64,000 nt of DNA from an uncultured Cryomorphaceae bacterium (GTDB taxonomy: Bacteria; Bacteroidota; Bacteroidia; Flavobacteriales; Schleiferiaceae), in assembly GCA_913043005.1 (NCBI GenBank), contig CAJWKU010000002.1, forward strand, positions 1 through 64,000, written 5' to 3'. Positions 4,929 to 59,719 of this stretch are shown piece after piece. The notes under the pieces were generated by a model. The model had not been told where the DNA came from and did not search any database. It saw only the letters and a list, made by a program, of their open reading frames with translations. Position 1 is the first letter of the stretch; every line of letters begins with the position of its first letter. Both the position numbers and the translations under genes were made by a program.

Positions 4929-5593
4929 TGAAAGCATGGAAAATAACCGGAATTATATTGGTCGCATATTCAATGTATGCAGGCCTAACTTTTGATGTTC
5001 CAAGGTTAGTGATACTCAATGAGACTATTAGAAACCTCTATTTTCATGTCCCAATGTGGTTCACTATGATTGCCCTTCTTGGAAATTCACTGATTCAGAG
5101 CATACGATTTTTGCGATCTGGACAAGAAGGAAGGAAGGTAAACTTAAGCCTAGATTTAAAAGCTAAGAATTTTGCTGAAGTAGCAATGCTTTTTTCTCTA
5201 TTGGGTCTTTTCACAGGAATGATTTGGGCAAAAGCAACTTGGGGTACATATTGGACATCAGACCCTAAACTTAATGGCACCGCTGTAACTCTGTTGATTT
5301 ATCTTGCATACTTCGTGCTAAGAAGCAGCATTGAGGATTTAGAAAAAAAGGCCCGTCTATCATCCGTTTATAATGTCTTTGCTTTCGTATTAATGATAGT
5401 TTTTATCGGTATTTTACCAAGAATGACTGCCTCCCTTCACCCAGGCAATGGAGGAAATCCAGCCTTTTCAAATTATGATTTAGATGACGGCATGCGCATG
5501 GTCTTTTATCCTGCAGTTTTTGGATGGATTTTAATTGGATGGTGGATTAGTTTAATTCGACATCGTTTAGATATTTTAAAGAAAGAGAAATGA
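4928..5593 (+). CDS. ccmC: Haem-handling protein CcmC
   Basis: A 221-residue six-helix protein of the haem-handling family. CcmC presents haem to CcmE on the periplasmic face. The tryptophan-rich segment GMIWAKATWGTYWTSDPK is the family's WWD-type haem motif in short form, and HVPMWF carries a likely haem-ligand His. I start at 4928 (MKAWKITG): this ATG overlaps the ccmB stop, whereas the longer frame from 4850 would lie well inside ccmB and add a segment foreign to the family. It overlaps ccmD by 4 nt. Confidence 0.93.
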   Translation: MKAWKITGIILVAYSMYAGLTFDVPRLVILNETIRNLYFHVPMWFTMIALLGNSLIQSIRFLRSGQEGRKVNLSLDLKAKNFAEVAMLFSLLGLFTGMIWAKATWGTYWTSDPKLNGTAVTLLIYLAYFVLRSSIEDLEKKARLSSVYNVFAFVLMIVFIGILPRMTASLHPGNGGNPAFSNYDLDDGMRMVFYPAVFGWILIGWWISLIRHRLDILKKEK

Positions 5594-5763
5594 TTTTTTT
5601 ACAAGCAACTCGCTCTGCCGTTGAAATGGCAGACACATTTCGAGCTGATGGCAAAATATATGTAGTCATAGCTGTTTTGGGAATAATATTTGTTGGTCTA
5701 ATAACTTACTTGATATATCTCGATAAAAAAATAAGTCGTTTGGAAAAACGAAATAGGGAATGA
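5590..5763 (+). CDS. ccmD: CcmD-like small membrane protein
   Basis: A 57-residue protein with one membrane helix (residues about 23-43, VVIAVLGIIFVGLITYLIYL) and a charged, lysine/arginine-rich C-terminal tail (DKKISRLEKRNRE). This is the shape of CcmD, which helps release haem-loaded CcmE from CcmC. Size and position support it more than sequence, which is poorly conserved in this family. Both ends overlap neighbours by ATGA: 4 nt with ccmC and 4 nt with ccmE, strong evidence that it is translated. Confidence 0.8.
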   Translation: MIFLQATRSAVEMADTFRADGKIYVVIAVLGIIFVGLITYLIYLDKKISRLEKRNRE

Positions 5764-6164
5764 AAAAAACTCAAATTGTACTTTTGCTAGTTATTTCGAT
5801 AATGATTGGCGCATTATTGGTTACTCTAGAAGATGCAAGTGTTTATGCAACATTTGAAATTGCAGATAGACAAAAACCTGAGACTGTTACTGTAGTAGCT
5901 AAAGTTGATTTAGCGAGTCCCATAAATTTTGATCCCAAAACTACGTTACTAACTTTTAACGCAATTGATAAGGATGGAGATTCCCGAAGTGTTGTCTACA
6001 ATCAACCTAAACCATCGGATTTTGAGCGTTCTGAAGAAATCACTCTAACGGGACATTCTACCGACCTCAATTTTGTCGCTACAGAAATTTTAATGAAATG
6101 CCCATCAAAGTATACTGACGACAATGAGCTTGACACAACCGGAATTTACTCGGTAAACTTATAG
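5760..6164 (+). CDS. ccmE: Haem chaperone CcmE, cysteine type
   Basis: A 134-residue periplasmic haem chaperone anchored by an N-terminal helix (residues about 5-22), followed by an OB-fold beta domain. In the classical protein a His in HxxxY binds haem covalently. Here that position reads CPSKY: C114 and Y118, i.e. CxxxY. Cysteine-type CcmE is known from Desulfovibrio and archaea. The N-terminus is short but complete. The start overlaps ccmD by 4 nt and ccmF follows after 3 nt, so it belongs to the same operon. Confidence 0.93.
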   Translation: MKKTQIVLLLVISIMIGALLVTLEDASVYATFEIADRQKPETVTVVAKVDLASPINFDPKTTLLTFNAIDKDGDSRSVVYNQPKPSDFERSEEITLTGHSTDLNFVATEILMKCPSKYTDDNELDTTGIYSVNL

Positions 6165-40041: not shown

Positions 40042-43000
40042 TTATTGAATAACAATAATTTCGCTTAAGGCCCGGCCGTTCTGGATTCTTGTCACAAGAT
40101 AATTTCCTGCGGCAATGTTTGATACATCCATAGTTAATTTATCCATACCAAAAGGAACTCTTGACATGTCTATACGTCTAACAATAGAACCATTCATACT
40201 TCTGATATTCACCTGAAGATCACCAGAAACCAATGGGACATTAAGAGACTCAGAAGTGGGATTAGGATAAATTCCCAGAGCCAACGTCTTCTCAGAAATT
40301 TCATCCTCATCAGCACCAACAGTATTAGCAACCGCAGTTGAAGTTGTACTGTAATAACCCCGTCCGTGAGTTGCAATAAATAAGTCTCCTTCTGTAGGGC
40401 TTGATCCTGCAGCAGTTGAATCGTAATTGTATCCGGTACGATATTGCTCAATCTGGAAAACTGGAACACGAACCATTCCGCTATTTTCCTCGGTATAAGT
40501 AGGTGATACCGAAGTTAAATTATCTGTCATAAAAATTCCCCATTCTGTTCCAACAATCAAACGATTATTATCGTGCTTGTCAAAGGAAATAGAATATGCT
40601 GGAACGGTTGGTAGATTTCCTTGCTTCGAAGCAAAAGTTGGATTTGCTGAAAGAGCATTACTAGAATAGTATACAAAAGTTGAATTATTATAATTTCCAA
40701 GAGATACAGCCACCCTGTTTGGGTTATTTGGATCAATATCGATACCTGTAATACTGCGACTACCAAATGTATTAATCAAATCAACCGTTATCAATTTATT
40801 CGCACTATCAATGTGAGCGTCAGCAGCAGATCTAGCAGACTGAAGATTAGATATTCGATATAATCTTCCATTTGTAGTTCCCACAAAAAGATGATCACCA
40901 TCTGCTGAAATCTCCATGTATTGGGGAAATATACCATAAGTACTACTTCCAAAATGGGCAATCTGCCACCATTCAGGCGTGCCACTAAAGTCTAGGGCAC
41001 CTCGGGTCATCCATATGCCTCCCATTGTTGGGAATGTAGCATTGGTTTGAGATGCATTACCGACTATATATATTGATTGCACTGGGTCCTGAACAGTTAA
41101 AATATCTCCGACATTCATTACTGATGTTGTTGTCACATCTATTGGAAGAGCACCAATTGCTGATGGCAATACCAAATCTGAAGCCGCTGGTAAAAAAACA
41201 TCGCAACTAAGAATGATCTCAGCGATTGGAGCAGATGTGAACGTAAGCTCAAAATAAGCACTATCAGGATGGAAAAAACCCGTCACTCCTGAGCCATTAA
41301 TATTACCTTGAGCATCTGCAGTTTCTGAAATGGATCCAACATTTAATTCAAATGTAGCTGGCAAATATTGCACCGCCGGTTGGCTATGATTAATCTTCCC
41401 TTTAAAGACTTTTTTAATCCCATCCCCATAACCCATGGATCTCAGGCCTGGAAGCAATTCATATCTTATGGTATCTTCTGAATTCGGATCATTACTGGTT
41501 TCCCATAATTCCATTGGCATCATGAAACTCGATAAGGCTTTTCCTTGCGAAACAGGTAATGTCATAAGAGGAGACCAGAATGTCTCGGCATTATTACCAT
41601 AACCGTCATTAGAACGGTAGAAAGATCCACCCTGAGATTCAAAAAAGTGAACTTTCGGAGTTAACCATGAAATCTCGGCATATCCTCCATCACCACCTCC
41701 GGTTTTGATGCCTGAATTTGGAGAAAGAAGACTTCCGTCTAAATAAATTGTTCCATTATCCTGACCACCGCCTAATATCTTTCTATCTCTTCCCACGGAA
41801 ACACCAAACTGAGTAAACGTGTTGTAATTCTTATTTCTTTCAGCCCAAGTCAATCCACCGTCGGAAGACTTAAAGACACCTCCATCATTAACGGCATAAA
41901 CAATATTTGAATTATTTGGGTCAAAAACCATATCATGACTATCTGAATGAATGTATATTGGGTTGCCAATACCTCCATAATTAGTAGTTGCTTGGCTCCA
42001 GCCCTGGCTCAATGACCATTTCCATATCGTTATGCCGCCAAGATAAATTAAGTCTTTGTCATGAGCAGAAACAGCAAAAAGCAAGTCATACTTTCCCTGA
42101 CAAGTTTGGTTCGAGGAAAATTGACTATTTGTGTAACAGAGTGGGTCAAAATTGTTTGATCTTTGACCGATCCTACTCCACGTTGTCCCTCCATCAATGG
42201 ACCTGTAAACGGCACGGAGCTTATTTCCATTAGTTTGAACACAATAAACATAGTTTTCATCTTGAGGGCTAATTGAATATCTCACTCGAGCCGTACCTCC
42301 GGCACGAGGAAGACTAGTGGAAGTTATTAATGCTGCTGAAATTTCTGTGAAAGTTGATCCATCAGATGAATACATCGTATTTCCATTACGGTTCACAAAT
42401 AACTTACCAGTTACAGAAATTGCAAAATCCCATATATTACCTCCCATTAGACCTGTCCATGTGAGTCCACCGTCTGTTGACTTTTTAAATCCTGTATTGG
42501 TGGCAGCGTATACTGTATTTCCTGCAGGATCAGTGGGGTCAGCTTCAATCCTAGGAACAGAACTCCAACCTATTGTAGTAGATAATTCAGTCCATGTGTT
42601 TCCTCTATCTGTTGACTTTAGAACACCTTTACCCATGAATTGGGGTGATGAACTTGCTCCACCACCACCGTAACCCTGAAAAAGCTCTCCGGTTCCAACA
42701 TAAATATCACCGTTTGGAGTTTGGGTCATGGAAACTATACTCTGATTATGAGTTGGGTCACCTATATGGTTCCAGGTTGCCCCACCATTTATTGATTTAA
42801 ATATTCCTCCACCAACAGATCCGGCGTAAAGATGAGAAGAATTGTCTTTATCAATAAGCAGGGCGCGCGTTCTTCCACCATAATTGTCCGGACCTTTTGT
42901 CTCCCAGGTCAGAGAATTCGTTTTGTTCGTTGGAAGAGCGTTTATCTCATCGGTTGCCTTTTGGATATCAGCTTCAGTAACTAACCCGGTTATTTCATTG

Positions 43001-43170
43001 GCACGCATTGAATTTATATACTCGGCATAACCAGCAATTCCATTCGGTGCAAACGCATTACTGTCGCGCGCCTGGTATCGTGCTTCTTGACTAGAATTAA
43101 AGAATGAAAAGGCTATCGCAATTACTAAAGAAACTGAGCCTAAAAAATAATGTTGAATTTTTAATCGCAT
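40042..43170 (-). CDS. T9SS-exported BNR/sortilin-type beta-propeller protein
   Basis: A 1042-residue exported protein. It has a signal peptide, then at least five BNR-type repeats of the form S-x-D-x-G-x-T-W (SINGGATWN, STDRGNTWT, STDGGLTWT, SIDGGTTWS, SSDGGLTWA), as in VPS10/sortilin propellers. The last 75 residues are a type A T9SS sorting domain (LGIYPNPTSESLNV, later GNYLV). It should cross the outer membrane by T9SS and be released or anchored. The ligand or substrate is unknown. Monocistronic, ends at a terminator. Confidence 0.92.
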   Translation of the reverse strand: MRLKIQHYFLGSVSLVIAIAFSFFNSSQEARYQARDSNAFAPNGIAGYAEYINSMRANEITGLVTEADIQKATDEINALPTNKTNSLTWETKGPDNYGGRTRALLIDKDNSSHLYAGSVGGGIFKSINGGATWNHIGDPTHNQSIVSMTQTPNGDIYVGTGELFQGYGGGGASSSPQFMGKGVLKSTDRGNTWTELSTTIGWSSVPRIEADPTDPAGNTVYAATNTGFKKSTDGGLTWTGLMGGNIWDFAISVTGKLFVNRNGNTMYSSDGSTFTEISAALITSTSLPRAGGTARVRYSISPQDENYVYCVQTNGNKLRAVYRSIDGGTTWSRIGQRSNNFDPLCYTNSQFSSNQTCQGKYDLLFAVSAHDKDLIYLGGITIWKWSLSQGWSQATTNYGGIGNPIYIHSDSHDMVFDPNNSNIVYAVNDGGVFKSSDGGLTWAERNKNYNTFTQFGVSVGRDRKILGGGQDNGTIYLDGSLLSPNSGIKTGGGDGGYAEISWLTPKVHFFESQGGSFYRSNDGYGNNAETFWSPLMTLPVSQGKALSSFMMPMELWETSNDPNSEDTIRYELLPGLRSMGYGDGIKKVFKGKINHSQPAVQYLPATFELNVGSISETADAQGNINGSGVTGFFHPDSAYFELTFTSAPIAEIILSCDVFLPAASDLVLPSAIGALPIDVTTTSVMNVGDILTVQDPVQSIYIVGNASQTNATFPTMGGIWMTRGALDFSGTPEWWQIAHFGSSTYGIFPQYMEISADGDHLFVGTTNGRLYRISNLQSARSAADAHIDSANKLITVDLINTFGSRSITGIDIDPNNPNRVAVSLGNYNNSTFVYYSSNALSANPTFASKQGNLPTVPAYSISFDKHDNNRLIVGTEWGIFMTDNLTSVSPTYTEENSGMVRVPVFQIEQYRTGYNYDSTAAGSSPTEGDLFIATHGRGYYSTTSTAVANTVGADEDEISEKTLALGIYPNPTSESLNVPLVSGDLQVNIRSMNGSIVRRIDMSRVPFGMDKLTMDVSNIAAGNYLVTRIQNGRALSEIIVIQ

Positions 43171-50254: not shown

Positions 50255-51448
50255 ATGTTAAAAGTATCTGACCGCGCGATATTAATGCCCGAATCTCCAA
50301 TTCGTAAGCTTGCTCCAGTCGCCCAAAAGGCTGAGAATAGTGGAATCCACATTCATTATCTGAATATTGGACAACCTGATATCTCAAGTCCCAAGAAAGC
50401 TATGGATTCAATTAGGAATCATAACATAGAAACGCTGTCCTATGCCCCTTCTGATGGGTTTAAAAGCTACAGGGAGAAATTATCACAGTATTATTTCAAT
50501 CAGAATATCCATTTATCACCGGAGGATATAATAGTCACCGCAGGTGGGTCAGAAGCCTTAGCTTTTGCCATAAGTTGTGCTTGCGATCCAGGAGATGAAG
50601 TCATCATACCGGAACCATATTATGCAAATTATCTTGGTTTTGGAGTGGCAACAGGAGTAAATGTAATACCCCTTCCCTGCTCCATAAATCAAGAATTCGC
50701 TTTACCCTCAAGCGATATTATATCTTCATTAGTTACAACCAATACCAAAGCGATAGTACTATGTAATCCTGGAAATCCTACTGGAAGACTTTACAATGAT
50801 CAAGAATTAGAGCAAATAAGATCGATAGCCTTGAACCACGACTTGTACGTTATCAGTGATGAAGTTTATCGAGAGTTTACCTATGATGGAAAAAAACATA
50901 CATCTATATTGACACTAAAAGGGTTAGGTCAACATGGTATTTTGATTGATTCAGTGTCAAAACGATATAGTCTGTGCGGAGCACGAATAGGCCTAATTGC
51001 GAGTAAAAATAAAAATATCATGGCAGCAGCTATGAAATTTGCACAAGCACGATTATCTCCCCCAACTTTAGCTCAAATAGTATCTGAAGCTGCTATAGAT
51101 ACCGATGATAGCTACTTTACAGAAGTAAAAAATGAATATGAAAATCGTCGCAATTTCATGGTAGATCGTTTGAATCGCATTTCAGGAGTTAAATGCCCAA
51201 AACCCTCTGGGGCTTTCTATTGCATTGCAGAATTACCAATTGATGATTCAAATGATTTTTGTCAATGGATCCTCAAAGAATTCAATCACAAGGGCGAAAC
51301 AATAATGATGGCCCCAGGAAATGGATTTTATTCAGACCCAAAATTAGGATTGAATCAAGTTAGATTAGCTTATGTTCTCGATATTGATCACTTAGATAGA
51401 GCAATAAATTGTCTCGAAATTGGACTGCAACAATATGAATCTAAATAA
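50255..51448 (+). CDS. Class I PLP aminotransferase (AspC-like)
   Basis: A 397-residue fold-type I aminotransferase. The Schiff-base lysine is K236 (DSVSKRYSLCGARIG), the PLP contacts are NPGNPTG and SDEVYREF, and the substrate Arg lies near the C-terminus (QVRLAYVL). It probably uses aspartate or an aromatic amino acid. The stop and the murB start share a base (TAATG), so the two are coupled. Confidence 0.92.
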   Translation: MLKVSDRAILMPESPIRKLAPVAQKAENSGIHIHYLNIGQPDISSPKKAMDSIRNHNIETLSYAPSDGFKSYREKLSQYYFNQNIHLSPEDIIVTAGGSEALAFAISCACDPGDEVIIPEPYYANYLGFGVATGVNVIPLPCSINQEFALPSSDIISSLVTTNTKAIVLCNPGNPTGRLYNDQELEQIRSIALNHDLYVISDEVYREFTYDGKKHTSILTLKGLGQHGILIDSVSKRYSLCGARIGLIASKNKNIMAAAMKFAQARLSPPTLAQIVSEAAIDTDDSYFTEVKNEYENRRNFMVDRLNRISGVKCPKPSGAFYCIAELPIDDSNDFCQWILKEFNHKGETIMMAPGNGFYSDPKLGLNQVRLAYVLDIDHLDRAINCLEIGLQQYESK

Positions 51449-52479
51449 TGCGTATTCAGGAAAATATAAATCTAAAAAAGTATAACACATTTGGCCTAAA
51501 CTGCATCGCTGAGCGGCTATTTCATTTAGAAGACGAAGTTGATTTAGTAAAATATCATCAACACCCAAATGGTTATGCAAAGCAAAGATTGCTCTTCTCC
51601 GGTGGAAGTAACCTTTTACTATGTTCAGAAATAAAGGGCACCGTTGCGAAAATTGAATGGAATGGAATTAAGATAATAAAGGAAACAGAGCAAGATGTTT
51701 TAGTTGAAGTTGCAGCTGGGCATTCTTGGCATGCATTTGTTCTTTGGGCAATAGATAGAGGATTTGGCGGAATTGAAAATCTATCTCTAATTCCTGGACA
51801 TGTTGGAACTGCCCCCATTCAAAATATTGGTGCCTATGGTGTGGAAGTCAAAAATTCAATTGAGTCACTCAGATATTATCGATGGGAGACTGGAGAAATT
51901 GAAATATTAAGTAACAAAATATGTGACTTTGGATATAGAACGAGTATTTTCAAAACACAATGGAGAGACAAGGGTGTCATATTATCAGTGAATTTCAAAC
52001 TCACCAAAGACAAGCATAATCTAAATACTCAATATGGTTCAGTGATTGATGAAATCCATAAAATGGGTGAACTTCCATCCATTTTGAGCATCTCAAAAGC
52101 GATAATATCGATTAGAAATAATAAACTCCCAGACCCAAAAGTTATTGGCAATTCGGGTAGTTTCTTCAAAAACCCAATAATATCAAAAAATACTCTTAGC
52201 GAGCTGAAAGAGAAACACAAAGATATCCCTTTTTATGATCAAGAAAATGGAAAGGTAAAGCTTTCAGCCGGCTGGTTAATTGAAATGTGTGGATGGAAAG
52301 GTAAAACTCACAAAGATGCTGGGATGCACGATAAACAAGCTTTAGTTCTTGTTAATCATGGCAATGCTACAGGCGAAGAGCTATGGGCATTCGCTAATCA
52401 TGTAAAAGAAGATGTCTATAAAAGTTATAAGATTAAGCTTGAACCTGAAGTCAATTTGATAGGACTATCCAACTTGTAG
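51448..52479 (+). CDS. murB: UDP-N-acetylenolpyruvoylglucosamine reductase MurB
   Basis: A 343-residue FAD enzyme of peptidoglycan synthesis. LLFSGGSNLLL binds FAD, then GIENLSLIPGHVGTAPIQNIGAYGVE, the catalytic serine in GNSGSFFKNP, and KLEPEVNLIG with the catalytic Glu. The type I length fits. It overlaps the aminotransferase by one base. A TAnnTTTG-preceded small gene follows. Confidence 0.96.
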   Translation: MRIQENINLKKYNTFGLNCIAERLFHLEDEVDLVKYHQHPNGYAKQRLLFSGGSNLLLCSEIKGTVAKIEWNGIKIIKETEQDVLVEVAAGHSWHAFVLWAIDRGFGGIENLSLIPGHVGTAPIQNIGAYGVEVKNSIESLRYYRWETGEIEILSNKICDFGYRTSIFKTQWRDKGVILSVNFKLTKDKHNLNTQYGSVIDEIHKMGELPSILSISKAIISIRNNKLPDPKVIGNSGSFFKNPIISKNTLSELKEKHKDIPFYDQENGKVKLSAGWLIEMCGWKGKTHKDAGMHDKQALVLVNHGNATGEELWAFANHVKEDVYKSYKIKLEPEVNLIGLSNL

Positions 52480-52532: not shown

Positions 52533-52742
52533 ATGATGGCTACCCTGAAACTAATATTAGTTGCATTTATATTACTTAGCATTGGCTTACTTGGAATGGC
52601 AGTAAAAATATGGTCTAAAAAAGATGGGGAGTTTGCTGGCACTTGTGCAAGCAATAGTCCATACTTAAACCCAGAGGGTGATAGTTGTGCTATATGTGGT
52701 GCTGAACCTAACGAGCAGTGTCAAAGCACAATTGAGTCTTAG
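52533..52742 (+). CDS. Small membrane-anchored four-cysteine protein, NqrM candidate
   Basis: A 69-residue protein with one N-terminal membrane helix (residues about 5-26), a basic stop (KIWSKKDG) and a tail with four cysteines: C38, C52, C55, C63 (TCAS...DSCAICGAEPNEQC). Helix plus four-cysteine tail is the layout of NqrM, the small protein needed for Na+-NQR maturation in gammaproteobacteria. It is convergent with apbE (2 nt between stops), the last gene of the nqr operon. The NqrM assignment is inference; sequence identity is not evident. Confidence 0.65.
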   Translation: MMATLKLILVAFILLSIGLLGMAVKIWSKKDGEFAGTCASNSPYLNPEGDSCAICGAEPNEQCQSTIES

Positions 52743-52744
52743 TA

Positions 52745-53746
52745 TCAGAGATCACTAAGGGTCGTCCAATTTCTAAAATTGCCTTTTTCATCAATGTAAA
52801 TGAGATAAGCATCCCATTCGGGATTTTGATCGAGCCAGAGCTTTGACTTATTTAAGCCCATTGCCAGAAATGCCGTTGCAAGTGCATCAGCCATAGCGCA
52901 AGAAGGGCCGATAATCGTTGAGCTAAGTACCTCTGTTTGAATCGGCCAACCCGTGAATGCACTTATTGTGTGCCCAAATTTAATTCCGGTAGAGGAATCC
53001 ACTCTAAAGTTTCTGTAGTTACCTGAAGTTGCTAAAGCTCTATTTCTAAGTGGAATTATAACCTGCAACTCATCTTGCTTATTGAGAGCTGGTTTCTCTA
53101 TACCTACTGTAAAATCATCTCCAAAAGACTTTTTACCATACGTTCTGATTTCTCCACCAACCTCAACAAATGCCGAATAAACTCCTCTTGACCTCAAGGA
53201 ATCAATAATTATATCTACAGAGTGCCCTTGAGCTAAACTCATAAAATTTAATTTAATATTTCTTGGCCATGCCCATCTACCAGTCGATGTAGGAAGCCAA
53301 TCGTCGTTTCCGACCAATTTCATTAAAGATTCAACCTTAGAAGAGTCATTGTAATCTAAATAACCATTATTAATTCCAAAACCCCAACCATCAATAATAG
53401 GCTCAAGGGTTGGCTCAAGTATTCCATTTGTCTCATGTTTCATCTGAATAGCTAGTTGACACAATTCAAACAACTCGGGAGATATATCAACTGTATCCCC
53501 TGAATTTAAATTTGAAATTTCGGATTCACCATCCCAAGGAGAAGCTATTCTGTTATAATGCGATAACCATTTTTTTATGTCCTTTTCACGAACATAGTCA
53601 TCACTAAAGTTCTGAGAATAAATCAACTTTATATGAAACGAGGTACCCTGAGCAGAACCTTCAAAAACGTCTTCATGGATATTTTCCGGAGAGCAACTTC
53701 CTAACAAAAAGAACAAGAAAAATATTATAAAGAAATTACGCATCAT
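52745..53746 (-). CDS. apbE: FAD:protein FMN transferase ApbE
   Basis: A 333-residue lipoprotein-type flavin transferase (lipobox LGSC, C18). It attaches FMN from FAD to threonines in NqrB and NqrC by a phosphoester bond. AQGTSFHIKL, LNSGDTVDISPELFELC, LAQGHSVDIII, EVGGEIRTYG and the Mg2+-site segment near MADALATAFLAMG are family landmarks. It lies 64 nt after nqrF on the same strand, so it is the operon's last gene. Confidence 0.95.
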   Translation of the reverse strand: MMRNFFIIFFLFFLLGSCSPENIHEDVFEGSAQGTSFHIKLIYSQNFSDDYVREKDIKKWLSHYNRIASPWDGESEISNLNSGDTVDISPELFELCQLAIQMKHETNGILEPTLEPIIDGWGFGINNGYLDYNDSSKVESLMKLVGNDDWLPTSTGRWAWPRNIKLNFMSLAQGHSVDIIIDSLRSRGVYSAFVEVGGEIRTYGKKSFGDDFTVGIEKPALNKQDELQVIIPLRNRALATSGNYRNFRVDSSTGIKFGHTISAFTGWPIQTEVLSSTIIGPSCAMADALATAFLAMGLNKSKLWLDQNPEWDAYLIYIDEKGNFRNWTTLSDL

Positions 53747-53810: not shown

Positions 53811-55124
53811 CTATCCCCCAAAATCATCAAAGGCAACATTTTCGGGCGGAACACCAAAATCATCAACCATCTTTAAAACAGCAGCATTCATCATCGGTGG
53901 GCCACAGAAATAATACTCAATATCCTCTGGGGTCTCATGATCCGCAAGATAATTGTCGATTAGGGCTTGGTGCACAAATCCTGTAAATCCATCTCCAGAA
54001 TCTTCCATGCTATTCTTAGCTTGCCACTTGTCTTCAGGCAAAGGCTCAGACAAGACCATGTGGAATTTAAAGTTCGGGAATTCCTTTTCAATATTTTCAA
54101 AATCATCTATATAAAACAATTCACGCCGAGATCTACCTCCATACCAATAGCTAACTTTTCGACCAGTTTTGAGCGTATGAAAGAGATGAAACAAATGAGA
54201 GCGCATAGGAGCCATTCCTGCACCGCCACCAATATATATCATTTCTGTATCAGTATCCTTAATATGGAAATCACCATATGGACCAGATATCGTGACCTTA
54301 TCACCAGCTTTTAAATCAAATACATATGAAGAACATACTCCAGGATTTACATTCATCCAGCCCCCTGCAGCACGATCCCATGGAGGAGTAGCAATTCGGA
54401 TATTCAACATAACCATATTACCCTCCGCTGGATGATTCGCCATAGAATATGCCCTAAATAAAGGTTCAGGATTATTCATTTTCAAATCCCATAAACCAAA
54501 CTTATCCCATTCACCCTTAAACTCGTCATCTTTTTTACCCAAACGAGGGTGAGCAGTAATATCGATATTCTCAAAATCCACAGTGACTTCAGGGACATCC
54601 ACTTGAATATAACCACCCGCTAAAAAGTCTAAATTCTCTCCTTCAGGAAGCTTGACTACAAACTCTTTAATAAAAGAGGCGACATTATAATTCGACACTA
54701 CTTCACATTCCCATTTTTTGATCCCAAATATTTCATCAGGAACAACAACTTTCATGTCATTTTTAACTTTTACTTGACAACCTAATCTCCAATCGTCTGC
54801 AATTTGTTTCCTGTTAAAAAAACCTTTTTCTGTTTGAAGTATTTCACCACCTCCCTCAGGTATTTGACATTCACACATCCCACATGTTCCGCCACCCCCG
54901 CATGCAGATGGAAGAAATATTTTCTGCTCGCTCAAAGTAGATAATAAGGTTGAGCCAGACTCAATTTCTACTATATCCCCATTTATATCTAATTTGACAG
55001 GGCCAGAAGGGGAAAGACGTGCTTTTGCTTGAAGCAAAATAGTTACAAGAGCTAGTATTACCAATGTAAAAACAATTACACTTGATAAGACAGCAATAGA
55101 TCCAGATGATAATGCGAAAAACAT
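53811..55124 (-). CDS. nqrF: Na+-NQR subunit F (NADH-oxidising)
   Basis: A 437-residue subunit with an N-terminal membrane helix, a 2Fe-2S ferredoxin domain (C75, C81, C84 in ACGGGGTCGMC, and a fourth Cys in WRLGCQV), an FAD domain (FRAYSMANHP) and an NAD domain (YIGGGAGMAPMRSH). It takes electrons from NADH into the sodium pump. The gap from nqrE is 10 nt. Confidence 0.98.
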   Translation of the reverse strand: MFFALSSGSIAVLSSVIVFTLVILALVTILLQAKARLSPSGPVKLDINGDIVEIESGSTLLSTLSEQKIFLPSACGGGGTCGMCECQIPEGGGEILQTEKGFFNRKQIADDWRLGCQVKVKNDMKVVVPDEIFGIKKWECEVVSNYNVASFIKEFVVKLPEGENLDFLAGGYIQVDVPEVTVDFENIDITAHPRLGKKDDEFKGEWDKFGLWDLKMNNPEPLFRAYSMANHPAEGNMVMLNIRIATPPWDRAAGGWMNVNPGVCSSYVFDLKAGDKVTISGPYGDFHIKDTDTEMIYIGGGAGMAPMRSHLFHLFHTLKTGRKVSYWYGGRSRRELFYIDDFENIEKEFPNFKFHMVLSEPLPEDKWQAKNSMEDSGDGFTGFVHQALIDNYLADHETPEDIEYYFCGPPMMNAAVLKMVDDFGVPPENVAFDDFGG

Positions 55125-55134
55125 AACTAAAGAA

Positions 55135-55752
55135 TTATAATTTAATACCCATAAAACTCATGAATGCTATACCCATAAGTCCAGTTATAATAAATGTGAT
55201 ACCCAAACCCCTTAATGCAGGAGGCACATGAGAATACTTTAATCTTTCTCTAATAGCTGCAATTGCTAAAACGGCAAGTAGCCAGCCAATTCCTGAGCCA
55301 AAACCAAAAGCCGTTGCCTGACCGATTGTTGCATATGCACGTTCCTGCATAAATAGAGAGCCACCTAATATTGAGCAGTTAACAGCAATCAAAGGAAGAA
55401 ATATACCCAGAGCTGAATACAGTGCCGGGGCAAACTTCTCTACGATCATCTCTACAAGCTGAACCATTGCCGCAATAACTGCTATAAACATTATGAAACT
55501 TAGAAAGCTCAAATCTACTTCTACAAATGAAGGATCTAACCACTGTAAAGCTCCTTTATCTAAAATTTTTGTTTGGAGAAGATAATTTACAGGAACTGTT
55601 ATGGTCAATACAAATGTCACTGCCAATCCAAGGCCCATTCCAGTCTTAACGGTCTTGGATACCGCTAAATATGAGCACATACCAAGGAAGTATGCAAAAA
55701 TCATATTATCTATGAAAATACTCTTGACGAAAATATTGATTAACTCTTGCAT
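55135..55752 (-). CDS. nqrE: Na+-NQR subunit E
   Basis: A 205-residue six-helix membrane subunit of the NqrD/E-RnfA/E family. [18 protein letters not shown] and [17 protein letters not shown] hold the conserved membrane cysteines that with those of NqrD bind the intramembrane Fe centre. 12 nt after nqrD. Confidence 0.97.
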
Positions 55753-55764
55753 AATATCTATCCG

Positions 55765-56421
55765 TTAATCTTTTTCAATCAATGAAGGAGTCTTGGATCT
55801 TTGCCACCAAATAATAAGAGCGACAACAATTAAAGCCATAGGAGGTAGCAACATCATACCATTATTATGGTATCCTAAGTCATATAGACCAAGTTTTTCA
55901 ACAACTGGATAATCATACAGGGTTCCATTACCAAGCAGCTCTCTGAAAAAAGAAACAACTATCAAAATCAAACCATATGAAGCTCCGTTTCCAATACCGT
56001 CCAAAAAAGATTTCCAAGGAGTATTGCCTAGGGAAAAAGCCTCAATACGTCCCATAATTATACAATTGGTTATTATAAGGCCCACAAATACTGATAATTG
56101 CTTGCTAACATCATAAACAAATGCCTTCAAAACTTGATCTACTAGAATAACTAAAGTTGCGACAACAACCAGTTGGACAATTATTCTTATTCTATTGGGA
56201 ATCATATTCCTCATTAGAGACGTTATTACATTTGCCAGGGCCATTACAACAATAACAGATAAACTCATTACTATTGCAGGTTTGAGCTTCACAGTAATAG
56301 CTAAAGCACTACAAATGCCTAAAACTTGAACAGTAATAGGATTATTAATATTCATCGGATCTTTTAATAGTTTTCTATTTTTCTTAGAAAACAATGCCTC
56401 TTTAGGTTTATTTATTTCCAT
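55765..56421 (-). CDS. nqrD: Na+-NQR subunit D
   Basis: A 218-residue six-helix membrane subunit paralogous to NqrE. LGICSALAITVKLKPAI and TNCIIMGRIEAFSLGNTPWKSF carry the conserved cysteines and the family signature. Immediately follows nqrC (2 nt). Confidence 0.97.
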   Translation of the reverse strand: MEINKPKEALFSKKNRKLLKDPMNINNPITVQVLGICSALAITVKLKPAIVMSLSVIVVMALANVITSLMRNMIPNRIRIIVQLVVVATLVILVDQVLKAFVYDVSKQLSVFVGLIITNCIIMGRIEAFSLGNTPWKSFLDGIGNGASYGLILIVVSFFRELLGNGTLYDYPVVEKLGLYDLGYHNNGMMLLPPMALIVVALIIWWQRSKTPSLIEKD

Positions 56422-56423
56422 GA

Positions 56424-57155
56424 TTAATTTAGTACAACACTTAAAATTGAATCTGATGGAATTTCAATTTCATCATCTGCAAGTTTTAATAAAAACTCTT
56501 TGTATGGGACAAGGCAATCTTCCAACATTGTCTGAACCCCAACAGATGTTATGGTCCCTCCAGATATACCATCAACCTGCTGTAATCCGTATGCATCGCC
56601 TTTTCTGACTTCAATTCCGTCTCTGGTCTGAGAAAATAAAACCTTATCGGGGAATTGATCCTGAAAAATGGGTGTAGAAATTTCTGCACCTAATCCAGGC
56701 GTTTCTTTTTCATGATCAAAAGAGGCACCTAAAATTGTATTCCCATCACCTTTTAATGAGACATAACCCCAAATAGGTCCCCAAAGTCCAGTTCCTCTCA
56801 TTGGAATGACATAGAATATATTTCCATTTTTTTCAGCTTTAAATAATGGCACTTTACGACTATTATTGGACTCCTTTACTGCAGCAGCCATGTCTATATC
56901 AAAAGCTGCTATGTCAGAAGAAACTACCCTACCGTCCTGAATCACTAATTGATCAGTTATATATTCGCTAAATAACAACTCAGGATTCTCTCCGATAACA
57001 CCAATAGAGGATAATATATCGGATTTCTTTTCTAGTTCGATATTTTTATCTTGGAATGGCTTTAAACTTGTTGCTGCTATGGATAGCAATGAAGCAACAA
57101 TAACAACCATTGCAATAGCAAATATGTATGTGTAACTATTTGAATTAATATTCAT
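56424..57155 (-). CDS. nqrC: Na+-NQR subunit C
   Basis: A 243-residue subunit with one N-terminal membrane helix and a periplasmic flavin domain. The covalent FMN threonine is T201 in DGISGGTITSVG; the usual form is SGATLT, so Gly replaces Ala one residue before. RGTGLWGPIWGYVSL and ETPGLGAEI are typical. ApbE, encoded downstream, should flavinylate it. Confidence 0.97.
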   Translation of the reverse strand: MNINSNSYTYIFAIAMVVIVASLLSIAATSLKPFQDKNIELEKKSDILSSIGVIGENPELLFSEYITDQLVIQDGRVVSSDIAAFDIDMAAAVKESNNSRKVPLFKAEKNGNIFYVIPMRGTGLWGPIWGYVSLKGDGNTILGASFDHEKETPGLGAEISTPIFQDQFPDKVLFSQTRDGIEVRKGDAYGLQQVDGISGGTITSVGVQTMLEDCLVPYKEFLLKLADDEIEIPSDSILSVVLN

Positions 57156-57159
57156 AATA

Positions 57160-58365
57160 CTACTTAGTGCTAAGTTTTAAACGTTTTAAACGTTTTTTCA
57201 CATTACCCTCAACGACATAATGATCGATTAAAGGAGCCATTACATTCATAAACAAAATTGCTAACATCATTCCTTCAGGGTATGCCGGGTTAAAGACCCG
57301 AATCATTATTCCCAGAAAACCTATAAAGAATCCATAGATCCACTTACCTTTTTCAGTATGAGATGCCGAAACTGGATCTGTCGCCATGAAAACTGTAGAA
57401 AATGCCCAACTACCGAATACTAGATGAAAATAAAATGGAATACTGAGAAAACCTTGCTGTTCTGGAGATATCATATTTGGAGCCACCAAATTAAAAATTA
57501 AACTTATCGCAATAGCTCCAAAAAGAGACGAAAGCATTATTTTCCAGGATCCAATACCCGTAGCAATCAAATAAATGCCTCCCAATAATATCAGAAGAGT
57601 ACTTGTTTCACCTATTGAACCTGGAATAATCCCTAGAAAAGCATCCCATGCTGAATAAGTTGTCCCCCCCGTTGTAGCGTACTGTCCAAGCGCTGTTGCA
57701 CCCGAAAAACCGTCGACAAGTGCTTCACCCTGACCTGTGGTGGTATTTATCCAAACTTTATCTCCACTCATGAAAGAAGGGTATGCGAAAAAAGCAAAAG
57801 CTCTCGCAGTCAATGCAGGATTTAAAATATTCATTCCAGTTCCACCAAAAACTTCTTTTCCGATTAAAACTGCAAAAATGGTTGAAATAGCAACCATCCA
57901 TAGAGGCATGTCAATTGGCATGGTCATTGGAATTAAAAGTCCGGAAACTAAAAAACCCTCATTAACGGCATGACTATTTCTGTAGGCAAAGTAAATTTCT
58001 ATTCCTAATCCTGCTATGTATGTAACTGCTATCATTGGAATAACTTTTATAGCGCCAAAAAGAAAATTATCCAATGTGAAAAATTGCAACCATCCGATAG
58101 CATCATTCAATAGCCCTAGAGCTCTGTAATGCTGATATCCAGCGTTAAACATTCCAAATATGAGAGCTGGGATCAGCGCAAAAATTACAGTAATCATCGT
58201 GCGCTTTAAGTCTATTGCATCACGAACGTGCGCTCCACTTTTTGCATTGTGATCCGGCACAAACAACATAGTCTCTAAAGCATTATACAATGGATATAAA
58301 GGTTTGAGCTTCCCAGTGGTTACAACAGGGCGGGCGGAATCAAAGATATTTTGTAAAAATTTCAT
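57160..58365 (-). CDS. nqrB: Na+-NQR subunit B
   Basis: A 401-residue polytopic subunit with about ten helices. The covalent FMN threonine is T224 in DGFSGATALGQY; riboflavin and quinone also bind here in the characterised enzyme. KEVFGGTGMNILNPAL is a family signature. 13 nt after nqrA and 4 nt before nqrC. Confidence 0.98.
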   Translation of the reverse strand: MKFLQNIFDSARPVVTTGKLKPLYPLYNALETMLFVPDHNAKSGAHVRDAIDLKRTMITVIFALIPALIFGMFNAGYQHYRALGLLNDAIGWLQFFTLDNFLFGAIKVIPMIAVTYIAGLGIEIYFAYRNSHAVNEGFLVSGLLIPMTMPIDMPLWMVAISTIFAVLIGKEVFGGTGMNILNPALTARAFAFFAYPSFMSGDKVWINTTTGQGEALVDGFSGATALGQYATTGGTTYSAWDAFLGIIPGSIGETSTLLILLGGIYLIATGIGSWKIMLSSLFGAIAISLIFNLVAPNMISPEQQGFLSIPFYFHLVFGSWAFSTVFMATDPVSASHTEKGKWIYGFFIGFLGIMIRVFNPAYPEGMMLAILFMNVMAPLIDHYVVEGNVKKRLKRLKLSTK

Positions 58366-58378
58366 CTACTTAAACGCA

Positions 58379-59719
58379 TTAATTCATTTCGGCATAAAGC
58401 ACATCCAGTCCTTTTCTAACCATTTCTTGCAAAGGTTGTTTAGAAGTGCAGATAACTTCGCAAAGAGCGAAGTCTTCTGGGACGATTTCATATATGCCTA
58501 ATTCTTCCATTTTTTCTAAATCTTCAGCCCATATAGATTTTAATAACTGATTTGGAAATATATCAAAAGGGAAGACCTTGTCATATTGTCCGGTTACTAC
58601 AAAAGCTCGCTCTTCTCCATTTAATTTTGTGGTCAAGTTATACTTCCGATTAGGGAATAGCCAAGAAAAATATGCCTTACTGAATGAGTATTTATCAAAA
58701 CCAGGGAGCACCCATCCAAGAAAATCGGTATTCTCACCTTCTGGGATAATTGTAATTTGTTTTGTCAGATAACCTAAATATCCCTCTTTACCAATATTAT
58801 TTCCCGTTAATACGGAGCCCGATATAAATCGATAATTTCCAGGCTTAACGTTTTCATTAAAAAAAACTGACATTGATTGGCCTCCCCGAACATTAAAATA
58901 TCCAGGTTCCTTCATTCCTGACCCACCAGCTGCAACTAATCGGTCAAGATGATACTCTCCTGAAATAAAAAGTTGTCCAATAATTGCAACATCCAAAGCG
59001 GCTATAGTCCAAACTATATCACCCTTATTGATAGGGGATACCTTGGAAATGTGAACAGAAGTATTTCCTGAAGGGTGAGGACCAGAAAATCTATGCAACT
59101 CTACACCCTCTGCATGTAATAATATTTTTGATTCTTCATTTGAAGAAATTGATAAAACAGTCTTACCTGAAAGTGCATTTAAGACTTTAAGTCCAGCAGC
59201 AAAAAATTCTTCTTTTCCTTTCAAAGAAATCGAAGGTTTTGAAGCAAATGGAGATGAGGCCATTCCATTGACAAAAATTGCCTTTGGAGAGTCCATGGGA
59301 TTTGCAATACATCCATAGGGTCGCATTTGAAGCAATGTCCATGCACCAGAGAGGAGGAGTTTACTTATAATTTTTTCCTTTTCAAATGGGAATTCTTTTC
59401 CAAAGTTAACATAATGACATTTTTCCTCTGGACGAATCACAATGGCATCAAGGCGTCTTTTAGGCCCCCTATCAATGGCAGTTATCTCTCCACTAACTGG
59501 GGAAGTAACTAGAATCTTATCATTTGATTTGTCATGGAATATGCATTCCCCGGCTTTAACCTTATCGCCAACTTTAACGTTTAATTTGGGATTTAATCCA
59601 ATAAATTCAGAAGGTCGTAAAGCGAAAGAGCTAGAAAATCCAGAAGAGTTAACTTTCTCAGATGGTTCACCTAACAAAGGCAAGTTGAGTCCCTTACGAA
59701 TAATATGTGTTTTTGACAT
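58379..59719 (-). CDS. nqrA: Na+-NQR subunit A
   Basis: A 446-residue peripheral cytoplasmic subunit, first gene of the nqrABCDEF-apbE operon. The biotinyl/barrel-type N-terminus (KGLNLPLLGEP, VKVGDKVKAGECIF) and the Rnf-like middle are standard. It has no cofactor of its own and is thought to sit near the quinone site. A TACCTTTG box is 35 nt upstream. Confidence 0.97.
   Translation of the reverse strand: MSKTHIIRKGLNLPLLGEPSEKVNSSGFSSSFALRPSEFIGLNPKLNVKVGDKVKAGECIFHDKSNDKILVTSPVSGEITAIDRGPKRRLDAIVIRPEEKCHYVNFGKEFPFEKEKIISKLLLSGAWTLLQMRPYGCIANPMDSPKAIFVNGMASSPFASKPSISLKGKEEFFAAGLKVLNALSGKTVLSISSNEESKILLHAEGVELHRFSGPHPSGNTSVHISKVSPINKGDIVWTIAALDVAIIGQLFISGEYHLDRLVAAGGSGMKEPGYFNVRGGQSMSVFFNENVKPGNYRFISGSVLTGNNIGKEGYLGYLTKQITIIPEGENTDFLGWVLPGFDKYSFSKAYFSWLFPNRKYNLTTKLNGEERAFVVTGQYDKVFPFDIFPNQLLKSIWAEDLEKMEELGIYEIVPEDFALCEVICTSKQPLQEMVRKGLDVLYAEMN

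Follow-up and report, generated by a model that had tools for sequence, protein, structure and literature searches.

Which protein serves the Na+-NQR of an uncultured Cryomorphaceae bacterium in place of NqrM? In Vibrio cholerae, insertion of the intramembrane [2Fe-2S] cluster of the enzyme seems to need NqrM, whose predicted task is to supply NqrD and NqrE with iron (stated in passages of PMC12174285 and PMC6209661). The window, that is, the whole stretch of 64,000 nucleotides analyzed here, carries an nqrA-F operon, and the sequence-only reading had found no nqrM in it and had proposed a small gene convergent with apbE as its divergent form. The first statement was borne out for the entire host genome (1.67 Mb, 47 contigs, 92.9% complete), where PF04400, the Pfam model of NqrM (DUF539), has no match at E <= 10; thus a true DUF539 protein elsewhere in the genome, which that reading had named as evidence against its proposal, was not encountered. 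The second statement is considered below.

The nqr operon and its small convergent neighbor

The features of the region are listed in Table 1. The ORF list confirms what had been read from the letters: a 69-residue protein (ATG start, translation MMATLKLILVAFILLSIGLLGMAVKIWSKKDGEFAGTCASNSPYLNPEGDSCAICGAEPNEQCQSTIES) with one helix and the cysteines C38, C52, C55 and C63, whose ORF ends at 52742, leaving a gap of 2 bp to the end of the oppositely directed apbE ORF at 52745. Both the sequence and an AlphaFold2 model show a single N-terminal transmembrane helix; in the model the helix comprises residues 2-27, with a mean pLDDT of 93, 96 and 76 for the first three ten-residue blocks, and the tail is undefined and of low confidence. 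The cysteines are arranged as G-T-C, 13 residues, C-x-x-C-G, seven residues and the last C. The tail probably faces the cytoplasm, since lysines (K25, K29 and K30) sit where the helix ends. Co-transcription of the gene with murB is possible.

Table 1. Features of the nqr region in the window and, in the last four rows, f30-type genes at other loci
Feature	Location	Strand	Basis and remarks
murB	51448..52479	+	PF02873, PF01565; 53 bp upstream of the 69-aa gene, same strand
candidate NqrM-like factor, 69 aa	52533..52742	+	ORF, family alignments A1/A2/A4, structure model
apbE, FAD:protein FMN transferase	52745..53746	-	PF02424, 202 bits; convergent neighbor of the 69-aa gene
nqrF	53811..55124	-	TIGR01941, E 9.7e-178; Fer2, FAD and NAD domains
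nqrE	55135..55752	-	PF02508; C26, C126 presumed cluster ligands
nqrD	55765..56421	-	PF02508; C37, C120 presumed cluster ligands
nqrC	56424..57155	-	PF04205 FMN_bind
nqrB	57160..58365	-	PF03116, 333 bits
nqrA, 446 aa, operon head	58379..59719	-	ORF list; judged by eye and position
f30 type (C-C-G-G-G-x-C)	L159 10831-11058	+	directly downstream of apbE
f30 type (C-C-G-G-G-x-C)	L160 5534-5740	-	directly downstream of apbE
f30 type (C-C-G-G-G-x-C)	L161 10030-10233	+	directly downstream of apbE
f30 type (C-C-G-G-G-x-C)	L162 5357-5575	-	directly downstream of apbE

NqrD and NqrE of the window retain their putative cluster ligands, so that what an NqrM-like factor would presumably act on looks intact. 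Two cysteines each of Vibrio NqrD and NqrE are named as [2Fe-2S] ligands in a passage of PMC10739449. The local contexts of C26 and C126 in NqrE match those of C26 and C120 in Klebsiella NqrE, and the contexts of C37 and C120 in NqrD match those of C32 and C115 in Klebsiella NqrD; the correspondence of the window proteins to the Vibrio ligands is likewise one of local context.

The presumed FMN-threonine site reads D-G-I-S-G-G-T in NqrC (by eye) and D-G-F-S-G-A-T in NqrB. Elsewhere in the window, an ORF at 40042-43170 on the minus strand encodes 1042 aa with repeats that by eye resemble a sortilin/BNR-type propeller, followed by a C-terminal sorting-type tail.

The 69-aa ORF is a member of a genuine, widespread family and no chance ORF, since most of the 60 genomes in a set of relatives have a match: 50 at E <= 1 (own genome included), of which 49 were counted as real and one (G040, E 0.3) was discounted as noise. 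A scan of GTDB with the protein gave 193 stretches confirmed by tblastn, of which 80 were kept; their labels include Flavobacteriales, Balneolaceae, Rhodothermia and others, the closest being labeled uncultured Flavobacteriales, Cryomorphaceae, Owenweeksia and Schleiferiaceae, while the plasmid collection contains no match. Among 16 diverse members with identity down to 29%, the four cysteines are invariant along with F34, G36, P43, L45 and G56; an alignment of 42 members (the window and 41 GTDB loci) has a larger invariant set than that of the 16, and C38, C52, C55 and C63 are kept throughout alignments A1, A2 and A4.

No Pfam or NCBIfam model matches the 69-aa protein over its cut-off. For the 16 members, the lowest E-values are 3.5e-4 with Pfam, from a zinc ribbon, and 0.065 with NCBIfam. 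The zinc ribbon, PF25144, matches eight of the 16 members at best with this E-value, and the 69-aa protein scores 14 bits with it, the cut-off being 27; we take these matches only as a hint of a possible metal knuckle.

Co-occurrence with nqrF and arrangement of the genes

We searched 296 Bacteroidota genomes for PF04400, the 69-aa family, nqrF, rnfC and ApbE. The family was found in 44 genomes at E <= 0.01 and in 43 after inspection, because the match in G285 (E 1.1e-5; L165, L215) has one cysteine and was removed. All 43 genomes belong to the 55 with nqrF (TIGR01941) and none to the 241 without it, while twelve nqrF-bearing genomes have no member of the family (Fisher 3.6e-41, a value that ignores the relatedness of the genomes). 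The phyletic check suggested by the sequence-only reading was thus in favor of its proposal, and the gene did not prove common in genomes lacking NQR, which would have spoken against it. The count of 55 includes G222, where the match covers profile positions 129-403 only and no other nqr gene lies beside it. The four-cysteine pattern was seen in 37 of the 37 copies inspected, a set that covers the 43 genomes except G241, G105, G166, G328, G120 and G233.

Neither RNF nor ApbE shows the same association. There were 55 genomes with rnfC at E <= 1e-50, 36 of them over the cut-off; of these 36, 21 lack nqrF, and the 69-aa gene was found in none of the 21. ApbE was found in 192 genomes, at most 55 of which have nqrF, so that at least 137 genomes have ApbE and neither nqrF nor the 69-aa gene. 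Presence and absence also agree among related genomes: in the genus g18 three of 17 genomes have both nqrF and the 69-aa gene and 14 have neither, and the families f24, f37 and f43 also contain genomes with both genes and genomes with neither. In the set of relatives, nqrF occurs in 52 and the 69-aa gene in 49 of the 60 genomes, never without nqrF, the three nqrF-bearing relatives without it (G004, G008, G015) being assemblies of 170 to 360 contigs.

Among the GTDB loci of the 69-aa gene, 52 do not contain nqrF (41 without apbE and 11 with convergent apbE). A search of the genomes behind these loci, except those of L035, L084 and L089, identified an nqrF match at E <= 1e-60 in 48 of 49, and in 46 over the cut-off; these 49 genomes partly overlap the set of relatives (in G409 and G418 nqrF has the same location as in G022 and G023). 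No nqrF match was found in G447, the genome of locus L107, which carries the 69-aa gene. Taken together, the association well supports the conclusion that the 69-aa gene is near-exclusive to NQR-bearing Bacteroidota and specific to NQR, not to RNF or ApbE.

The gene lies less than 8 kb from nqrF in 14 of the 43 genomes, on the same contig at a distance of 35 kb to 2 Mb in twelve, and on a different contig in 17, where fragmented assemblies may mask some linkage. With 29 copies at least 35 kb away or on another contig, linkage with nqrF does not explain the co-occurrence. A recurrent companion is apbE, which is convergent with the 69-aa gene at less than 2 kb in 35 of the 80 GTDB loci (24 of these 35 also containing nqrF); 41 of the remaining loci have no apbE match, three have too little flank and one has apbE elsewhere. 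Convergent pairs occur in loci labeled Flavobacteriales, Balneolaceae and Rhodothermia, as well as in the order of G293 treated below, including loci with nqr farther away or on a different contig (L228, L232, L237). Where the 69-aa gene neighbors apbE, the opposite orientation that had been pointed out in the window is thus the norm; it is real, recurs in distant Bacteroidota and is no peculiarity of one genome.

Variants and replacement proteins

In the order of G293, presumably Bacteroidales, 48 of 60 genomes have nqrF, and the profile of the 69-aa family at E <= 0.1 matches 43 of the 60: 41 of the 48 with nqrF and two of the twelve without it (Fisher 1.3e-5), leaving seven nqrF-bearing genomes with no match at this threshold. 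The two nqrF-lacking genomes with a match are G361, where the protein has one cysteine, and G360, which is outside the inspected set. Of 29 matches inspected, 14 are of a four-cysteine type with C-x-C, and all 14 host genomes have nqrF (Fisher 0.05); L211, L219 and L226 have four cysteines in another arrangement, and the other inspected matches have fewer than four. NQR can be assembled without this exact protein, since most NQR-bearing genomes of the order lack its cysteine pattern.

The C-x-C type (for example, L228 6995-7216) belongs to the same superfamily as the 69-aa family (99.6% probability, E 7e-24 in the profile comparison); its second and third cysteines form C-x-C, as opposed to C-x-x-C in the 69-aa family, and like the 69-aa gene it is convergent with apbE, in L228, L230, L231, L232 and L237. 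Another variant with G-I-T-C and more C-terminal cysteines is convergent with apbE in L230, L238 (5585-5911) and L239 (5593-5808); L230 carries a tandem of this variant and a four-cysteine C-x-C version (5251-5469 and 5612-5818). Low-cysteine relatives were observed in the same order in L165, L212, L214, L217, L218, L221, L222, L225 and L227, with a motif G-x-F-P followed by a single C, as in C-A-Q-S-Q-D; the host genome of L225 lacks nqrF.

A different protein was found in the family f30. It has a helix, the motif C-C-G-G-G-x-C and four or five cysteines in total (eight of eight inspected), and it occurs in all eight nqrF-bearing and none of the eight nqrF-lacking f30 genomes searched; four of the nqrF-bearing genomes supplied the sequences for the model used, A3, which leaves G118, G122, G126 and G171 as independent finds. 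None of the eight nqrF-bearing genomes has a member of the 69-aa family, and among the 43 genomes with that family A3 was searched in G000 only. In the four loci inspected, the f30 type follows apbE on the same strand, in contrast to the convergent 69-aa gene, and its profile resembles that of the 69-aa family with a probability of 41% and that of NqrM with 91.9%, mostly over the helix. In this family, the f30-type protein replaces the 69-aa protein. A further helix-plus-cysteine family with an iron-related name, the FeoB_associated Cys-rich membrane protein (PF12669), very weakly matches three of four scanned f30-type proteins (E 0.11 to 0.99), far below the cut-off, and has no match to the 69-aa protein.

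With G222 set aside, 51 of the 54 nqrF-bearing genomes among the 296 carry either the 69-aa family or the f30 type. Neither four-cysteine family was found in the remaining three, G285, G293 and G323. No other f31 genome among those sampled has an nqrF match than G323. Its contig C25 (locus L158) has an nqrB-F set, lacks both four-cysteine partners, shows no match to apbE within the 15 kb inspected, and may be a stray contig, since contamination is 3%. The nqr loci of Bacteroides, Parabacteroides and Prevotella in the plasmid collection (L177, L178, L186) likewise have no small four-cysteine gene near nqr.

Proposed function and relation to NqrM

We consider it likely that the 69-aa protein is a maturation factor for iron or Fe-S insertion, dedicated to NQR in Bacteroidota and working like NqrM. 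This reading is based on its anatomy, its exclusivity to NQR, the company of apbE and the replacement by another cysteine-rich membrane protein. Anchored in the inner membrane by its single helix, the protein would extend its C-terminal tail into the cytoplasm, where the four invariant cysteines would bind iron or a cluster precursor and pass it to NqrD and NqrE; the four cysteines that these two subunits have in the membrane presumably carry the [2Fe-2S] cluster through which electrons cross it.

Other readings of the same distribution were considered. It is unlikely that the protein remains in the complex as an accessory structural subunit, such as a single-helix one stabilized by metal. A subunit of this kind would show the same co-occurrence with nqrF, accessory subunits are typically small with one helix, and the Prevotella NQR models described in a passage of PMC10739449, being homology models of six subunits, could not reveal it; however, the gene is away from nqrF in 29 of 43 genomes, it accompanies the maturation gene apbE even where nqr is elsewhere, and the four-cysteine layout of the protein is that of NqrM. 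The same company of apbE, convergent and often adjoining (35 of 80 loci; L228, L232, L237), could point to a helper of ApbE in the transfer of flavin to NqrB and NqrC or, alternatively, a sensor of redox state or iron for NQR expression, which we regard as quite improbable: ApbE is present in 192 of the 296 genomes but the 69-aa gene in nqrF-bearing ones only, and RNF, which uses ApbE as well (according to a passage of PMC12174285), is never accompanied by the gene where NQR is absent (0 of 21). Moreover, the invariant cysteines with their C-x-x-C-G knuckle suggest metal rather than flavin.

The genomes are related and the Fisher value takes no account of kinship, so that the co-occurrence could in principle reflect shared ancestry or lifestyle, the protein having no function in NQR. 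Against this very improbable explanation stand the matching presence and absence inside g18 (both genes in three of 17 genomes, neither in 14), the occurrence of both-gene and neither-gene genomes in each of f24, f37 and f43, the lack of proximity between the 69-aa gene and nqrF in most of the 43 genomes, and the second family, that in f30, which tracks NQR (8 of 8 versus 0 of 8).

The preferred role, that of an NQR-dedicated maturation factor, would provide a concrete candidate for the missing maturation factor of Bacteroidota, as the gene tracks NQR even where unlinked. In the open-licence papers searched, no paper on a Bacteroidota NqrM was found, and PF04400 is over its cut-off in none of the 296 genomes, although the origin of NQR is placed in the Chlorobi/Bacteroidetes group in a passage of PMC4014512. 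A tentative and rather doubtful scenario is that the 69-aa family is the original NQR iron-insertion factor, that proteobacterial NqrM arose from it in the course of the enzyme's transfer, that f30 swapped in a second, perhaps unrelated, protein, and that many Bacteroidales-like members changed or lost cysteines. If this is true, several small membrane cysteine proteins are interchangeable for iron delivery to the NqrD/NqrE cluster. The observations suggest that the job of NqrM may fall to more than one family. For annotators, this adds a family on whose member in the window no Pfam or NCBIfam model fired.

By the Pfam definition the 69-aa protein is outside NqrM. It has no match to PF04400 at E <= 10 (gathering score 22 bits) and 16 diverse family members have none at E <= 1, while four of four NqrM proteins used as a positive control pass the model with 24.5 to 78.6 bits. 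PF04400 also gave 15 weak matches in the 296 genomes; two of these were inspected (L111, 21.1 bits; L117, 16.1 bits) and judged to be chance matches, as neither locus showed a recognizable small gene for a helix-plus-cysteine protein. The failed membership does not weaken the functional likeness to NqrM.

In profile-profile comparison, a check that the sequence-only reading had suggested, the 69-aa family matches NqrM with a probability of 94.5% (score 40.7); with only the helices compared the probability is 92.6%, with only the tails 0.3%, and with the tail reversed 89.7%. When the tail columns were shuffled and the helix was left as it is, 19 of 400 trials reached the observed score; including the C-x-C type in the profile was no improvement (49 of 400), and the C-x-C type alone gave 24 of 400. 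In favor of common descent, the N-termini of seven other families from these loci reach only 0.4 to 6.2%. The low-cysteine relatives reach 88.7%, nearly as much as the family itself, which again points to the helix as the origin of the signal; the likeness of the tails is not significant. Common descent of the 69-aa family and NqrM is thus plausible but unproven. Of the claim of an NqrM in divergent form, the NQR-specific role stands, well supported by association since the gene is not common without NQR and no DUF539 protein was found elsewhere in this genome, while descent is suggested but not demonstrated, the profile match being mostly that of the helix.

Four cysteines after the helix, present in each of the NqrM sequences examined here, are reportedly a defining feature of NqrM as described by Kostyrko et al. 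in 2016. We compared the protein with 17 NqrM sequences from records of the plasmid collection, 12 of them annotated as nqrM. The two differ in gene arrangement: in the annotated records nqrM directly follows apbE or nqrF on the same strand, whereas the 69-aa gene is convergent with apbE where the two are neighbors and is often not close to nqr. Around the first cysteine, G-T-C-A-S of the 69-aa protein stands against G-S-C-G-G of NqrM. Its length of 69 aa compares with 54-86 aa in the 17 sequences, the C-x-x-C at the second and third cysteines is shared with most alphaproteobacterial NqrM proteins, and common to NqrM and the 69-aa protein are the helix, the basic residues, G-S/T-C and three further cysteines.
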